Positions 5,432-38,537 of a DNA stretch of 43,129 nucleotides are shown here, piece by piece. Each line of letters opens with the position of its first letter. Position 1 is the stretch's first letter. The notes beneath the pieces are model-generated. The model was not told where the DNA came from, ran no database searches, and saw nothing but the letters and a program-made list of their open reading frames with translations. Both the position numbers and the translations under genes were made by a program. This stretch comes from Planctomycetaceae bacterium. GTDB taxonomy: Bacteria > Planctomycetota > Phycisphaerae > Phycisphaerales > SM1A02. The DNA is taken from positions 1 through 43,129 of the forward strand of contig CANETX010000002.1 in NCBI GenBank assembly GCA_947441435.1. Reading direction: 5' to 3'.

Positions 5432-5476
5432 GTTCTGCGCAAGGAAGGCCCGATTCGGGCGTCCGTTGCGCAGAAC
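5432..5476. repeat. long inverted repeat (hairpin C) between convergent speA and fic
   Basis: GTTCTGCGCAA (5432-5442) and TTGCGCAGAAC (5466-5476), perfect 11 bp; core CCCGATTCGGG. Confidence 0.85.
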
Positions 5477-8401: not shown

Positions 8402-8755
8402 ATGGAGACCTATGTTGTTGAGATCGTCGGTGATGTCCTGATCCTGCGCGCGGATGGCGGGATCAACACCAGCACGGCGAGCCAACTCTCCGACAGCATC
8501 GGCAAGCTCGTGAAGGGTGGGATCACCAACATCATCGTCGACTGCACGAAACTGTCGATTATCTCCAGCATGGGGTTGGGGGCGCTCCTCATGCTCCACA
8601 CTCGGATGAAGCGCGTGGGTGGCGAGATCCGCCTCGCGGCGCTTTCGGGCGCCGTCGTTCAGGTCATCAAGATGACGAAACTCGATCGGGTCTTCGAGAT
8701 CTACCCCGATGTCGAGCAGGCCAGGCTGAGCTTCCGCAAGCCGACCAAGTCGTAG
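8402..8755 (+). CDS. STAS-domain protein (anti-sigma factor antagonist-like)
   Basis: ADGGINTSTASQLSDSIGKLVKGGITNIIVDCTKLSIISSMGLGALLML; 3 bp downstream of kdsD. Confidence 0.88.
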   Translation: METYVVEIVGDVLILRADGGINTSTASQLSDSIGKLVKGGITNIIVDCTKLSIISSMGLGALLMLHTRMKRVGGEIRLAALSGAVVQVIKMTKLDRVFEIYPDVEQARLSFRKPTKS

Positions 8756-8804: not shown

Positions 8805-8855
8805 CATCATGTGTGCCGAATAGGCCCAATTTGGGTCGTTTCGCCACACATGATG
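8805..8855. repeat. dispersed palindromic element copy A
   Basis: CATCATGTGTG (8805-8815) and CACACATGATG (8845-8855) are perfect 11-bp inverted arms; inner CCCAATTTGGG. Confidence 0.8.
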
Positions 8856-8906: not shown

Positions 8907-10421
8907 TCAGCCTCCCAGGGCTTGCTTCGAGGGGGCGCCGATGGAGTCGGCGATGAGGCGGGCGATCTTGTCTTGGAGCCCCTTGAGTTTGCCGACCGAG
9001 TCGCGCTCGCTGAGGTTGTTGCCCAAGACGCTGAATGCGTAGCGCGTGCCATTGCCGCTGGTCACGAAGCCCGAGAGGCAACTCACTTTGTCGATGTATC
9101 CGGTCTTGCACTGCACCATCGCGAGCGATGGGTTGATGTCCTTCATGCGCTTGCGCACCGTGCCCGATTGGCCGGCGACTGCGAGGCTGCCGATGAACGC
9201 CGGGCCGACGGTCGAGTCTGCCGCCAGCGCGGCGAGCCACGCCGTCACGCCATCGGCGGTGACGCGATTGTCGCGCGAAAGCCCTGATCCATCCGAAACG
9301 ACGAAAGGGGATGCCGACGCGCCGACTGCTCCGGATACGAGGCGATGGATCGCCATTGTTCCCGTCGCCCATGAGCCGGGTTGTCCGGTCTGCTGCGCAG
9401 CGATCCGCTTGAGGAGACTCTCCGCATAGAGGTTTTCGCTCTCGACATTGCAGCGACTGATGACGGTCGAGAGGGGAGTGCGCAGGATCGGCCCGATGCG
9501 CGTGCCGTCTGGCTTCGCCTCGCCGGGCTTCGCGGTTCGTGCGCGCGCGACGGGGATCCCCGCGCGCTGGATCCGATCCGCAAGGCACTGCGCGAGAAAC
9601 ATTGCCGGATCGGAGACTCCGACGGCGATGGGTGAGGCGAGCGGCGTCTTCACATTGCCGTAGATCGTGAGCGCCCCCGTCTCGGGCGCGCGGGCGATCC
9701 ACGCGGTGTTGCGGTCGGCCTTGCCGGTGCGGTTCGTCCCCTTGTTCTCGATGGTGAGCCACGGCGCCTTCGGCGAAAGCGCGATGACACGAGGCGCACT
9801 TCCGAGCGTCGGCGCGAGGCTCACATGCAGCGTGTTCGCATGGAAGTTGACGCCGCACGGCGGGGCGCAATAGGACTCGTCAAGTTGGTCCTTGGGCCAC
9901 GAAGGGTGCGCCCCCTCGCGCGCGAAGATCCGGTCATCGACGACGATCTCGGAGAGTGACTTCACGCCGCTGGCGGTGACCGCGCGCACCCAGGAGTCGA
10001 GCAGCTGCTCGATCGTCATCCCCGTGTGCACGACACCGGCGGCATCGAGGAAACTCGACTGCGCAAGAAGTTCGGGATCGCCGAGTGCGGGGTCACCGTC
10101 GCCGACGACGATGAGACGGTCGCCGTCCTTGAGCAGCTTCGTCTCGAACGCGAACGCCGGGCCAAGGGTGAGGAGCGCCGCCCCCGTCGTGAGCAGTTTC
10201 TGGTTGCTCGCAGGGGCGAGTGCCTGGTCGGCGTGGTACGAGGCGACGACTCGCCCCGTGGCGACATCGCGGATGCTCACCGCGATCGAGGCCTTCTTGA
10301 GGCCGAGCGCGTTGATCTCGGATCGGACGGATTGGGAGAGGTCGCGTGACGCGACGGGGGCTGCCGCGGGCGATGCCCCGGCAACGGCGGCGGCCGCCGC
10401 AAGGGTGAGAGACAGCAACAT
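8907..10421 (-). CDS. dacB: D-alanyl-D-alanine carboxypeptidase/endopeptidase, PBP4 type (peptidase S13)
   Basis: SxxK in APASNQKLLTTGAAL, DGSGLSRDNRVT, VQCKTGYIDKVSCLSGFV (KTG). ATG at 10421 preferred over the upstream TTG (10424). Confidence 0.92.
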   Translation of the reverse strand: MLLSLTLAAAAAVAGASPAAAPVASRDLSQSVRSEINALGLKKASIAVSIRDVATGRVVASYHADQALAPASNQKLLTTGAALLTLGPAFAFETKLLKDGDRLIVVGDGDPALGDPELLAQSSFLDAAGVVHTGMTIEQLLDSWVRAVTASGVKSLSEIVVDDRIFAREGAHPSWPKDQLDESYCAPPCGVNFHANTLHVSLAPTLGSAPRVIALSPKAPWLTIENKGTNRTGKADRNTAWIARAPETGALTIYGNVKTPLASPIAVGVSDPAMFLAQCLADRIQRAGIPVARARTAKPGEAKPDGTRIGPILRTPLSTVISRCNVESENLYAESLLKRIAAQQTGQPGSWATGTMAIHRLVSGAVGASASPFVVSDGSGLSRDNRVTADGVTAWLAALAADSTVGPAFIGSLAVAGQSGTVRKRMKDINPSLAMVQCKTGYIDKVSCLSGFVTSGNGTRYAFSVLGNNLSERDSVGKLKGLQDKIARLIADSIGAPSKQALGG

Positions 10422-11309: not shown

Positions 11310-12173
11310 TCAGGCTGGGTTGGCGGGGGCTGCTGCGGGTTCGACGGCGGGTGCGGCCATCACGGCCTCGCCGCCGTCAACGCCGGTCGGGCCATCATCC
11401 ACGCGGAATCGGCTGCGGACGCTGCGTCGGCGGGGGGCGAGCGCTTCGCCGTCGGCGCCGTCGCCTGAGTCGCCGGCCTGCGGGGCCGAAGTCTGGCGAG
11501 TCGTCTTGCCATCGGTCACGGCAGCAGCGAGTTCACGCAGCACGAGGTCGATGGAGCGCATCGAGTCGTCGTTGCCGGGGATCGGAATGTCGGAGAAGTC
11601 AGGATCGCCGTCGGTGTCGATGAGGCAGATCGTCGGGATGCCGAGGTTCTTCGCCTCGCGCACCGCGTTCATCTCGCGGTTGACGTCGACAACGACGAGT
11701 GCCGCCGGAAGCTTCGACATGCTGCGCACGCCGTTGAGATTCCGGTGGATCTTCTTGAGTTCGCGGGTGAGCTGCGACTCCATCTTCTTGGAGTAGCTCT
11801 TCATGCCGCCGCCCGTCACGAGTCCTTCGAGTTCCTCGAGACGCTTCAGTCGGTCGCGCACCGTGCGGAAATTCGTGAGCAGTCCGCCGAGCCATCGCTC
11901 GGTGATGTACGGCATGCTGCAGGCGATGCAGTGGCTCTCGATCGCGCCGCGCGCCTGTCGCTTGGTGCCGACGAAGAGGATGTCGCCGCCTTCGCTGACA
12001 GTCTTGGAGATGAACTTCTTCGCCAGCAAGAGACCCTTGATGGTCTCCCGGATGTCGATGATGTGGATCTGGTTCTTGACTCCCTGGATGTAGGGGGCCA
12101 TCTTCGGATTCCAGTTGGATCGGCGCTGGCCGAAGTGGATTCCGGCTTCGATGAGTTCGTTGACAAGTGACAT
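11310..12173 (-). CDS. rpsB: 30S ribosomal protein S2
   Basis: [68 protein letters not shown]. Confidence 0.97.
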
Positions 12174-12194
12174 GGGGTTCTTTTCTTTCGGACA

Positions 12195-12235
12195 GCCCCT
12201 TGTGAGGGGCCAGCGACACCCGAGCGAGCGGCTGG
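12195..12235 (-). promoter_or_regulatory. structured rpsB 5' leader (two candidate hairpins)
   Basis: GCCCCT-tgtg-AGGGGC (12195-12210), and CCAGC/GCTGG (12210-12214/12231-12235). Confidence 0.4.
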
Positions 12236-12420
12236 TGGGCCTTGCGGCGCCGCGCACTCGATGAGGGCGCTTTGCGGGGGGGAGAAACGACTTCGCAGCC
12301 AGGGATCCACCAAGATCCGTGGTGCTCGGCGGGCGGGCCATCCACTATGGAGGGTTGCCGAACGCCGAGCCGCGCAGACTAGCGCAAGCCCCCCGGAGTG
12401 CGCAACTACTATTCCGACCC

Positions 12421-13818
12421 ATGCTGGCCAAGGTTTTCAAGGCGTACGACATTCGGGCTACCTATCCCGATCCCCTCGACGAGCGCGCCGCATGGCGCAT
12501 CGGCTACGGAGCCGCGCGCTATCTCGCCGAGCGAGCGGCGCAGGATGGCGATGACCGGCCGAGCATGCGCTCGATCGTTGTGGGGCGCGACATGCGCAAG
12601 AGCTCGCCGTCGATGAGCCGCGCGCTCATCGCTGGCATCCGCGCCTTCGGCAGCAACGTGATCGATGTCGGCATGGTCGACACGCCGATGGTGTACTTCG
12701 CCATCAACCACACGCACTGCGCTGGCGGCATCCAGGTGACGGCGAGCCACAATCCCGCGCACTACAACGGATTCAAGGTGAGCCGCAGCCACGCCAAGCC
12801 GGTCGGAATGGGGAGCGGCCTCGAGATCGTGCGCGCGTACGCCGAGGAGGCGTGCGACGATGGCTCGCACTGCGAGGGAGGACGGCTCGAAACGGTTGAT
12901 CTCTGGAGCGCGTACCGCGATCATCTGTTGCGGCGGTTGCATGCCTCGGTGCTCGACGGATCGCGGACGCTCAGGGTCGCGGTCGACGCGAGCAACGGGA
13001 TGGCGGGGACGGCCTTTCCCAAGGTGTTTGATGGCGTTGCGGGGCTCACTGTCGAGACGAGCAACTTTGACAATTCGACGGGGACCTTCGTGCATGAACC
13101 GAATCCGCTGGTGGAAGCGAACCTTGCGACTGTTCAGGCGGCCGTCAGGGGTGGCAAGTGCGACTTCGGTGTCTGCTTCGACGGCGATGCCGACCGCTGC
13201 GTGATCGTCGACGAGCGAGGAGTCACGGTCGGCTGCGACTTGCTGCTCGCGGCGCTTGCAACAGAGGCGTTGAAGGATGCACCGGGTGCGGCGGTCGTCT
13301 ATGACCTTCGCTCATCGCGCAGTGTTCGCGAGGCGATCGTGGAAGCGGGGGGAGTGCCCGTCGAGTGCCGGGTCGGCCATGTCTTCATGAAGGGGCGGCT
13401 GGCGGAGACGGGGGCGCCCATCGGCGGAGAACTCTCCGGACACTTCTACTTCGCCGACATGTTCAACGCCGACAGCGGGCTGCGGGCGTTCATCGCGGTG
13501 GCGAATCTTCTTGCGGCGAAGCGTGGCACGCTCTCCGAGATCCTCAAGCCCTACGCGCGGTACCAGCAGTCAGGCGAGATCAACTTTGAGTGCGCCGACA
13601 AGCAGGGGGCGATCGCCGCGATGAAGCGGAAGTACCCGTCGGCGGCATGCACGGAGCTCGATGGGGTGAGCCTCGATGCGGGTTCGTGGTGGTGCAATGT
13701 GCGGATGAGCAACACGGAGCCACTTCTGCGCCTCAACCTCGAGGCGGCGACGAAGGCGATCGTCGATGCGCAGATCGCGGAGTTGACGCCGATTCTGGGG
13801 ACGCGTGTCGCGCACTGA
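12421..13818 (+). CDS. phosphomannomutase/phosphoglucomutase
   Basis: VFKAYDIRATYPDPL, TASHNPAHYNGFK (catalytic Ser), FDGDADRC, GELSGHFYF. Confidence 0.93.
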   Translation: MLAKVFKAYDIRATYPDPLDERAAWRIGYGAARYLAERAAQDGDDRPSMRSIVVGRDMRKSSPSMSRALIAGIRAFGSNVIDVGMVDTPMVYFAINHTHCAGGIQVTASHNPAHYNGFKVSRSHAKPVGMGSGLEIVRAYAEEACDDGSHCEGGRLETVDLWSAYRDHLLRRLHASVLDGSRTLRVAVDASNGMAGTAFPKVFDGVAGLTVETSNFDNSTGTFVHEPNPLVEANLATVQAAVRGGKCDFGVCFDGDADRCVIVDERGVTVGCDLLLAALATEALKDAPGAAVVYDLRSSRSVREAIVEAGGVPVECRVGHVFMKGRLAETGAPIGGELSGHFYFADMFNADSGLRAFIAVANLLAAKRGTLSEILKPYARYQQSGEINFECADKQGAIAAMKRKYPSAACTELDGVSLDAGSWWCNVRMSNTEPLLRLNLEAATKAIVDAQIAELTPILGTRVAH

Positions 13819-22901: not shown

Positions 22902-22937
22902 CCGCCCACCCCGCCCATCCCGCGCACCCCGCACGCC
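22902..22937 (+). repeat. 9-bp tandem repeat, about 4 units
   Basis: CCGCCCACC CCGCCCATC CCGCGCACC CCGCACGCC. Confidence 0.65.
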
Positions 22938-22996
22938 CCCGTGGAATTGGTCAGATATTCGAGAAAAACTCGAATGGATGACCAATCCTGGGGGGG
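22936..22996. repeat. C5/G7-flanked hairpin copy 1
   Basis: CCCCC-gtgga-ATTGGTCA-gat-ATTCGAG-aaaaa-CTCGAAT-gga-TGACCAAT-cct-GGGGGGG; both internal stems perfect (8 bp and 7 bp). Confidence 0.85.
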
Positions 22997-35628: not shown

Positions 35629-36309
35629 TTATTCCATGAGATCGAAGAACCGTGGGTCCGCCGGGCCGCCGATGGAAACGGCGGTGACGAGGCCGGTGTA
35701 GTCGTCGGCGCCTGGACTGGAGAAACCCGCCTTCGGCGCGACCATCGTGAAGGTCTCGTTCGCGCGGACGGCGTCGTCGGGGCCGCCGAGTGGTCGACCC
35801 GAATCGCAGTCGAGCCCGCTGGGAATGTCGATGGCTACGACCGGCAAGCCCGCCGCGTTGAGCTGGTTGAGCCAGTGAATCGCTGCCAATTCGGCACCCT
35901 CGGGGGGTCGGGTGAGGCCAGTCCCAAAGATCGCATCGATGAGGACAACGGGGCGGAGGCCGCCACGGTGGAGCGAGTCCGGCGGAAACGGCTGAATGAG
36001 TCCCAGTGCCTCGGCGCTCGCGCACATCGTGGCGGCATCGGATCCGGTGCGGGGCGGGGCGACTTGGAGCGCGATGGCATCGAGTCCGTGGCTCGCGAGC
36101 GTGCGCACGATCGCATAGCCGTCACCGCCGTTGTTGCCGCTTCCACAGAGCGCGAGGAACTGTGATGTCTGTGCGCCGACGCGTCGGCGAAGGAGCGCGG
36201 CGCATTCGACTGCGGCGTGGGTCATCAGCACGATGGAGGGGATGCGCCAGCGCTTCTGGCACCACTTGTCGTGGCGGATCGCCTGCGCGCGTGTGAATGA
36301 GTCGGCCAC
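35629..36309 (-). CDS. nnrE: NAD(P)H-hydrate epimerase (YjeF_N domain)
   Basis: LCGSGNNGGDGYAIVRTLASHGLDA, VLIDAIFGTGLTRPPEG, VAIDIPSGLDCDSGRPLG. GTG start at 36309. Confidence 0.92.
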   Translation of the reverse strand: MADSFTRAQAIRHDKWCQKRWRIPSIVLMTHAAVECAALLRRRVGAQTSQFLALCGSGNNGGDGYAIVRTLASHGLDAIALQVAPPRTGSDAATMCASAEALGLIQPFPPDSLHRGGLRPVVLIDAIFGTGLTRPPEGAELAAIHWLNQLNAAGLPVVAIDIPSGLDCDSGRPLGGPDDAVRANETFTMVAPKAGFSSPGADDYTGLVTAVSIGGPADPRFFDLME

Positions 36310-36315
36310 AACGCA

Positions 36316-36321
36316 AGCGTA
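36316..36321 (-). promoter_or_regulatory. TACGCT -10-like hexamer, 6 nt from the nnrE GTG
   Basis: + strand CAC-aacgca-AGCGTA. Confidence 0.65.
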
Positions 36322-36334
36322 TCGGTGCGACCGC

Positions 36335-36340
36335 TACCCT
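36335..36340 (+). promoter_or_regulatory. TACCCT -10-like hexamer, 6 nt from GTG 36347
   Basis: TACCCT-cttcgc-GTG. Confidence 0.65.
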
Positions 36341-36346
36341 CTTCGC

Positions 36347-37579
36347 GTGGCGCTCGTCATCACCGTCTGGATCCTCGCGGCGCTCTCACTGGCGGGGGGT
36401 GCGTACTGGGCCGTCGTGCGCTACCGAGTCGAGCGCGACGGACGCAATCGACCGGGGCTCGCGGAAGGGGAGTCGCTCACGCTGCCCGCGTGGCCGAGCG
36501 TGTCGGTCATCATTCCTGCGCACAACGAGGAGGAGCATGCGCCGGATCTCCTGAGGACACTCGACTCGCAGGATTACCCCGGCGAACTCGAGATCATCTT
36601 CGTGCTCGATCGGTGCACCGACGCGACGCGCAGCGCCCTCGAGCGCGAGCGCGCGCGGTCGGCGGCGAGCGGGCTCCGCCTTCCGACGCTCACGATCATC
36701 GACAACCACTCCTGCCCAGAGGACTGGGCGGGAAAGTGCAACGCTGCGCGGCTGGGGGCTGCGGCTGGGAAAGGGGAGATCCTCCTCTTCACCGATGCGG
36801 ATACGCATTTCGCGCCGTCCCTGGTGCGATGCGCGGTCGCGCTCGCGAAGACCCGCTCGCTCGCGCTGCTGTCGGCGCTCCCTGAAGTCAGCGTCCGCCA
36901 CGCCTTCGAGGCCGCCGTGCAGCCGGTCGCGGCGGTGCAGTTGATGAAGCTGTATCCGATCTCGCGAGTCAACGCCGAGGACGAACCGCGCCCGTTCGCC
37001 AACGGGCAGTTCATGCTGTTCACGCGCGAGTCCTACGACGCGCTCGGGGGGCACGCGGCGGTGAAAGACGATCTCCTCGAAGATCTCGCCTTCGCCAGAC
37101 GAATGGTCCATGTCCTCAAGCGCCGCGCTGGGCTCTTCGTCGCCGACGGACTGCTCGGTGTGCGGATGTACGAGTCATTCGCGCAGTTCCGCGAAGGCTG
37201 GCGGCGAATTCTCATCGAGGCGTGCCATCGCAATCCGTCGCGGATGAGCCGGTATGCCGTCGAGAACGCGACCGTCGGTGCGGTGATTCCACTGATTGCG
37301 CTCGCGACTCTCGTCGCGGCCGCGTGCGCACTGCAGGCGAACGACACGCCGCTCGCGATCGGCGGCTTCACCGCAGGGGCGATCGCACTCCTGCTCCAGT
37401 TGACCACCGCAGCGCGCATCTACTCGCTGATGGGAATTCCGAAACGGTGGGCACCGACCTATCCCTTCGGTGCGATCATCGTCGCGCGGATCCTCTGGAA
37501 GGGCTCACGCGACCTCCGCGAACGCCGCGCGGTCCGCTGGGGCGGTCGGCAGTACATCCTCGCACCCCGCGCGGACTGA
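36347..37579 (+). CDS. membrane glycosyltransferase family 2
   Basis: WPSVSVIIPAHNEEEHAPDLLRTLDSQDY, LLFTDADTHFAP, LLEDLAFARRM, QFREGWRR; N- and C-terminal TM segments. GTG start. Confidence 0.9.
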   Translation: MALVITVWILAALSLAGGAYWAVVRYRVERDGRNRPGLAEGESLTLPAWPSVSVIIPAHNEEEHAPDLLRTLDSQDYPGELEIIFVLDRCTDATRSALERERARSAASGLRLPTLTIIDNHSCPEDWAGKCNAARLGAAAGKGEILLFTDADTHFAPSLVRCAVALAKTRSLALLSALPEVSVRHAFEAAVQPVAAVQLMKLYPISRVNAEDEPRPFANGQFMLFTRESYDALGGHAAVKDDLLEDLAFARRMVHVLKRRAGLFVADGLLGVRMYESFAQFREGWRRILIEACHRNPSRMSRYAVENATVGAVIPLIALATLVAAACALQANDTPLAIGGFTAGAIALLLQLTTAARIYSLMGIPKRWAPTYPFGAIIVARILWKGSRDLRERRAVRWGGRQYILAPRAD

Positions 37580-37589
37580 CTTCCGTCGG

Positions 37590-37632
37590 ATGTGTGGCGA
37601 ATCGTCCCTTCAAGGGCGCTTTCGCCACACAT
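37590..37632. repeat. dispersed palindromic element copy B
   Basis: ATGTGTGGCGAA (37590-37601) and TTCGCCACACAT (37621-37632) are perfect 12-bp inverted arms; core CCCTTCAAGGG. Confidence 0.85.
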
Positions 37633-37663
37633 TCGGTCAGCCTCGAGCGCCGTTCGCAACACA

Positions 37664-37725
37664 CCCCCTTGAACAGGTGAATAAGGTGCTCGATTCGGTC
37701 ACCGAAATCACCTGTTGCGGGGGGG
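37664..37725. repeat. C5/G7-flanked hairpin copy 2
   Basis: CCCCC-ttg-AACAGGTGA-[27 nt including TTCGGtcaCCGAA]-TCACCTGTT-gc-GGGGGGG; outer stem 9 bp perfect. Confidence 0.8.
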
Positions 37726-37751: not shown

Positions 37752-38537
37752 ATGCGGATTCTCCTCACGAATGACGACGGCATCACCGCGCCGGGGATCG
37801 ATGCGCTGCACACGGCGATCGCTTCGCTGGGCGAGGTCGTCGTCATCGCCCCTGCGGGAGTCCAGTCCGCGATGAGCCACGGCATCACGTTTCACCGTCC
37901 CCTGATGGTGCGGAAGATGCAGGTGAACCCGCGGCTCTCTGGCTACGCCATCGAGGGGACGCCTGCCGACTGCGTGAAGATCGGGCTGCGCACGATGTGG
38001 GGAGAACTCTTCGGTCCGGGGAGCCGTCCCGACCTCGTCATCAGCGGGATGAACAGCGGCGCGAATGTCGGGATCAACGTGATCTACTCGGGGACGGTCG
38101 CAGCGGCGATCGAGGCGGCGTTCCTCGGCGTACCCGCGATCGCGGTCAGCCTGCACATGGGGGACTTCTCAAAGACCGCTTGGTCCCGCGCGGCGCACTT
38201 CGCGCGCGCGACCATCGACCGTCTCGTCGCGCATCCGCTCGATGCGCACCGCGTCCTCTCGATCAACATCCCGGTGACGCAGTCCGACAGCGACCCGATG
38301 CCGCCTGTGCGTGTCGTGCGCATGAACACCGCCGCAGGAATCGACCGGCACGAGCGGCGCGAGTCGCCCGATGGTCGTCCCTACTACTGGCCCTGCGGCA
38401 ACGGCATGGAGTTCATGCACACCGCGCAGGGCTCCGATGTCGAGGCGCTGATGGATCGGCAGATCACGGTGACGCCGCTCTCCTATGACCTGACCGACGA
38501 AGGCTCGATCGCCACGTGGGCGGCGCGGCTCAGTTGA
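37752..38537 (+). CDS. surE: 5'/3'-nucleotidase SurE
   Basis: MRILLTNDDGITAPGIDALHTA, VVIAPAGVQSAMSHGIT, VISGMNSGANVGINVIYSGTVAAA. Confidence 0.96.
   Translation: MRILLTNDDGITAPGIDALHTAIASLGEVVVIAPAGVQSAMSHGITFHRPLMVRKMQVNPRLSGYAIEGTPADCVKIGLRTMWGELFGPGSRPDLVISGMNSGANVGINVIYSGTVAAAIEAAFLGVPAIAVSLHMGDFSKTAWSRAAHFARATIDRLVAHPLDAHRVLSINIPVTQSDSDPMPPVRVVRMNTAAGIDRHERRESPDGRPYYWPCGNGMEFMHTAQGSDVEALMDRQITVTPLSYDLTDEGSIATWAARLS

Follow-up and report, generated by a model that had tools for sequence, protein, structure and literature searches.

Copy B, a 43-bp palindrome, lies in a window of 43,129 nucleotides (the whole stretch of DNA that was analysed) and is best explained as a REP-like mobile palindrome, here present as a solo copy, partnered by a Vsr-like nuclease rather than a RAYT; we put the probability of this reading at roughly 60%. 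Palindromes of this kind have been inserted into the genome, they belong to many families, matching copies flank nuclease genes, and nuclease and palindrome vary together.

The family N palindrome

The window contains two copies of the palindrome, A and B (Table 1), which we assign to family N. They have the 43-bp length, the outer arms and the CCC-N5-GGG core in common, and both read exactly as given in the initial annotation. Two matches to the 37-bp inner pattern (at most three mismatches) were found in the window, where 0.01 would be expected. On folding as single-stranded DNA, copy B gave z = -7.3/-7.5 on the two strands and copy A z = -4.2/-5.1, each relative to shuffled sequence. The window's own genome (G000) is a Phycisphaerales MAG of 2.06 Mb in 192 contigs, 83% complete. 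Family N, identified by GTGTGGCGAA, is present there in 18 clear copies by a mismatch-tolerant pattern and in 21 by a covariance model; the family is thus not confined to the two copies first noticed. The motif GTGTG...CACAC, the AA at columns 11-12 and the CCC-N5-GGG core are kept in 18/18 aligned copies. Two subtypes are distinguished: type I, which includes copy B, reads ACGT-CCC-TTSAA-GGG-CGGT and type II, which includes copy A, reads TCGG-CCC-NANTT-GGG-CCTV. The window has no match in Rfam, and the exact family N pattern has none in 85,462 species genomes, a set from which the window's own genome was possibly left out.

The initial annotation had described the core changes as compensatory. 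This stands in part: 80% of cells pair, but most of the two-sided changes are those that separate type I from type II. Family N has five pairs with two-sided changes, not above the 4.8 seen in shuffles, whereas its covariation score (0.113) is above that of shuffles (0.065). Paired changes are no argument for RNA, since a dyad-symmetric DNA site predicts the same changes. The suggestion that each copy descends from a perfect palindrome of which one half has drifted is not supported in that form. Half-to-half mismatches are common to the copies of a subtype and are therefore inherited, not the result of random decay.

Table 1 Features of the window
Feature	Position	Strand	Remarks
Copy B, family N type I palindrome	37590..37632	.	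pairing reaches 37587-37635
Copy A, family N type II palindrome	8809..8851	.	pairing reaches 8805-8855
Family A palindrome (AACAGGTGA...TCACCTGTT), same gap as copy B	37672..37716	.	C/G runs flank, 37664-37724
Family D palindrome, between convergent genes	5432..5476	.	dyad scan
Family F palindrome, between convergent genes	22936..22996	.	family F flanks nuclease gene on C16
Glycosyltransferase-like gene, upstream of copy B	36233..37579	+	codon-bias gene call; orthologs in 17 relatives
surE-like gene, downstream of copy B	37752..38537	+	gene call
STAS-like gene, upstream of copy A	8402..8755	+	gene call
D-Ala-D-Ala carboxypeptidase-like (dacB-like) gene, convergent with STAS	8907..10421	-	gene call

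Insertion at gene ends

Most family N copies start no more than about 60 bp from a stop codon, and many lie between convergent genes. In 838 kb of G000, palindromes of all families are present in 25 of about 42 convergent gaps longer than 60 bp, in 24 of 153 tandem gaps and in 7 of 88 divergent gaps; the genes came from a simple codon-bias caller and these counts are approximate.

The glycosyltransferase-surE and STAS-dacB gene pairs are kept in 17 relatives of the genus. The gaps measure 172 bp (copy B) and 151 bp (copy A) in G000. The orthologous gaps in the 17 relatives are short, the longest being about 100 bp (G001), and carry no palindrome. Copies A and B are therefore insertions. A separate short GC-rich inverted repeat, identified by eye, sits 3' of the STAS stop in both G000 and its nearest relative (G014, 95% complete), thus the copy A palindrome is an addition. 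The family F element occupies a gap of 148 bp in G000, and the corresponding gaps in G014 and G001 measure 3 and 14 bp, respectively; a family N copy on contig C54 occupies a 60-bp gap where the genes overlap in G014. The other family elements that could be tested by synteny give the same picture of insertion. The intergenic DNA of the relatives is too diverged to place the insertion junction, and neither an exact junction nor a target-site duplication is defined.

These data bear on the proposal, also made in the initial annotation, that the repeat is a terminator or regulatory RNA hairpin. The palindromes might terminate transcription or stabilise RNA 3' ends as hairpins, and might have multiplied through their usefulness at these positions; they do form strong hairpins just 3' of stop codons and are enriched between convergent genes. 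However, no T-tract is present, and the 12 nt that follow the hairpin contain 1.76 T against 2.14 expected, fewer than the genome average. The gene strand shows 22 G-T and 23 A-C mismatches, so there is no G-U strand bias. Orthologous gene ends do without the palindrome, and some elements sit in divergent gaps. We regard this explanation as improbable. The inserted palindromes may later have taken on a role as RNA 3' hairpins.

Other families of common geometry

A dyad scan of G000 identified at least 14 palindrome families with different arms, 45-60 bp in length and sharing one geometry; the family borders were set by arm signatures chosen by eye. Four of them, N (two copies), A, D and F, are represented in the window. 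Mean pairing frequencies of 30 representatives are 0.77-1.0 for the roughly 13 positions of the outer arm, only 0.50-0.63 for the zone 6-9 positions from the centre and 0.80-0.90 for the inner stem, which encloses a small loop. One third of 60 elements have four consecutive C to their left and four consecutive G to their right, compared with 0.2% of random positions. Neighbours of the same family number 13 against 2.6 expected and, once nuclease pairs are collapsed, 10 against 2.4 (p = 2e-4). The relatives have fewer dyads than G000, in families of their own.

Family A accounts for 11 of the 60 palindromes sampled in 838 kb. One of its copies lies 40 bp from copy B, and the family also occurs in a row, with three copies on contig C18 and at least four on C20. 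The family B copy at L184 6761-6820 (C36, G000) is a nearly perfect 60-bp palindrome; other B copies are mismatched.

Nuclease genes between matching palindromes

Homologous genes of about 320-370 codons lie between same-family neighbours on contigs C5, C15, C16 and C30. A profile search located five such nuclease genes in G000, all elsewhere in the genome and outside the window, and fifteen in nine relatives. Matching palindrome repeats of 49-97 bp are found on both sides of 17 of the 20 genes, 15 pairs being direct and two inverted. Flanking repeats at E<1e-8 were seen in 0/600 control windows from the relatives and in 2/400 from G000, one of these two being a nuclease unit. The C5 gene sits between two diverged palindromes, and the genes at L246 and L258 each have just one flanking palindrome.

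Some families thereby form palindrome-nuclease gene-palindrome units about 1.1 kb long; family B is the palindrome family of a nuclease on contig C14. The C5 unit takes up the 1157 bp separating two convergent genes, whose counterparts in G014 overlap by about 17 bp. One 1.2-kb unit is found in both G012 and G008 with 93% identity, and the DNA differs beyond about 45 bp. Palindrome similarity follows nuclease similarity (Mantel r=0.65, p=1e-4), also for nuclease pairs from different genomes (r = 0.64). The nuclease-flanking families have other copies in the genome of the nuclease: matches in 802 kb number five for B, five for H, six for F and two for K, flanking copies included, and 189 kb of G011 contain three of its own nuclease-flanking family.

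A search of the whole G000 assembly, an incomplete MAG, found no nuclease gene adjoining families N and A, the two largest. In G014 a dispersed family with GGGAAACAWTSKGCCC arms (L114, L118, L219 and L224) has no matching nuclease and is unlike the palindromes of that genome's only nuclease. Both observations count against the mobile-palindrome reading. For family N, whose own partner gene was not found, spread by an enzyme of this kind is an inference.

Alternatively, the palindromes may have existed first and spread by another route, with the nuclease gene as a homing-type parasite using them as its target. The nuclease domain is closest to a homing endonuclease (see below), and most families, N included, have no nuclease gene. 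There is also a precedent, in that insertion of IS elements into REP elements is known (PMC1525189). Against this, nearly every nuclease lineage has a different flanking palindrome, varying with the nuclease, and in the sets searched both nuclease and palindromes are limited to the genus plus one further genome, G023. We consider such a parasite unlikely, though a good deal less so than a terminator function.

G023 is a member of another genus of the same family. It was the only genome outside the genus in which the family N model gave several matches, a result that preceded the discovery of the nuclease. A search for the nuclease across 151 genomes of the order located it in this genus and G023 only, with two genes in G023 (contigs C59 and C27). 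The G023 palindromes (GTTGGTGAGAATCGGCCCC) are near-perfect dyads, whose similarity to family N type I is 0.31 compared with a null 95% value of 0.21 from simulated dyads. The coincidence of palindrome and nuclease outside the genus is notable; the absence of palindromes elsewhere is weak evidence, as the model search was tuned to family N.

The nuclease protein

Pfam assigns MTES_1575/DUF559 nuclease domains and a weak AbiEi_4 match to the protein. The predicted model has a mean pLDDT of 81.6 and a pTM of 0.60. Its best PDB match in Foldseek is the catalytic domain of I-Bth0305I (3r3p; probability 1.00, TM 0.81-0.82 by target, E 1.8e-3), and the AbiEi antitoxin 6y8q also matches (probability 0.97). 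Profile comparison matches the DUF559 protein 3hrl at E=1.3e-8 and 3r3p at E=0.06 only. Invariant residues of the nuclease include D244, E255, D257, H262 and D271 (numbering of the first alignment row). Judged from sequence and predicted fold, the protein is an AbiEi-like N-terminus joined to a putative DUF559/Vsr-like nuclease domain. Among plasmids, one from Tsukamurella gave a partial match to DUF559, and viral contigs gave short matches to the catalytic core only.

A review describes I-Bth0305I as a dimer with a target of nearly 60 bp (PMC3943268). By analogy only, the 45-60 bp of the dyads would fit a dimer target of this type.

Proposed route of spread

With the flanked genes in hand, a route can be outlined in which the palindromes would insert just after stop codons. 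The nuclease, probably dimeric, would recognise the dyad of its own family and nick or cut at this site. Repair or recombination could then place a new copy of the palindrome, alone or together with the gene, at a different gene end, in many cases close by. One point against this route is that Vsr-like nucleases, as hydrolases, have no strand-joining activity; the copying would have to be left to host repair. Solo copies may result from mobilisation in trans or from recombination between direct repeats, the process by which solo LTRs arise.

Relation to known repeats

The initial annotation's comparison with REP/BIME-like or MITE-like dispersed palindromes is borne out: the elements are multi-copy, lie at gene 3' ends and include demonstrable insertions. 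REPs are likewise short imperfect palindromes with a mismatched zone, present in many copies downstream of genes and enriched in convergent gaps, and in REPtrons too an enzyme gene is flanked by copies of the repeat. The REPtron enzyme, RAYT or TnpA-REP, is an HUH enzyme related to IS200/IS605. In contrast, the palindromes described here are longer (43-60 bp), lack a Y1/HUH gene and are linked to a Vsr-like nuclease.

Classical REP elements mobilised by a RAYT that is now lost or absent from the assembly are a further candidate, as the size, position, mismatched stem and copy number are similar to those of REPs (PMC3733652, PMC8266576). However, the check for RAYT-type transposases suggested in the initial annotation gave Y1_Tnp (PF01797) in 0/19 genus genomes, 14 of them at least 90% complete, with five control genomes positive. 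The terminal tag is missing as well: neither GTAG nor GGAG stands at the hairpin foot in the flanked alignment of 18 family N copies. This origin is very improbable. Sites of the attC type were rejected as a candidate; the elements lie outside cassette arrays and have no R-box pattern by eye.

The CGTC-tagged REPs, which lack a dedicated transposase (Neisseria dRS3, Rickettsia RPE-4/RPE-6; PMC3733652), resemble our elements as RAYT-less palindromes with several families per genome. They differ in that CGTC here is inside the type I stem, absent in type II and never terminal, and that the palindrome families here have a linked nuclease gene. The unpaired terminal CGTC, the stem starting AT and the CCA tail described for that class (PMC3733652) are not seen in the family N alignments. 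EDxHD/Vsr-like homing endonucleases such as I-Bth0305I and DUF559 proteins share the catalytic fold with conserved acidic and histidine residues, and our nuclease gene looks selfish in the same way. Unlike these, the nuclease is fused to an AbiEi-like N-terminal region, was not seen in an intron or intein and is flanked by palindromes. MITEs, too, are short inserted inverted repeats that lack autonomy and are related to a unit with apparent autonomy, whereas here a single dyad makes up the entire element, no DDE transposase was found between copies and no target-site duplication is defined.

How RAYT-less REP-like palindromes spread is stated as an open question in the REP literature (PMC3733652). 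The present families are tied to a concrete, intact nuclease that is not a transposase, with co-variation in sequence, and this link makes such spread testable with one protein and one oligonucleotide. No report tying DUF559 or Vsr-like proteins to palindromic repeats was found in the open-access literature searched. Lineage-specific palindromes together with a homing-endonuclease-like gene suggest a small mobile element that resembles REP and employs an unrelated enzyme. We tentatively go further, at somewhat less than even odds, and propose a new class of transposase-free mobile element, in which dyads of 45-60 bp would serve a homing-endonuclease-like (AbiEi-like/DUF559/Vsr-like) protein as recognition site and would also be the unit that it spreads, an independently arisen counterpart of REP/RAYT with an unrelated enzyme. 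If true, some of the DUF559 proteins would gain a role, and two unrelated nucleases would have converged on mismatched palindromes.

Minor features of the units

The downstream palindrome abuts or overlaps the nuclease stop codon in L244, L254, L260 and L262. Next to the palindromes at L256 400-430, and at the corresponding place in L257, GCGTGTTACGGGCA forms a tandem repeat that looks like the stepwise duplication of an arm. Among the control windows, L085 at about 11700-12750 (C5, G000) has a 59-bp direct repeat, 88% identical, flanking about 1 kb; this pair may be another unit of the palindrome-nuclease type.
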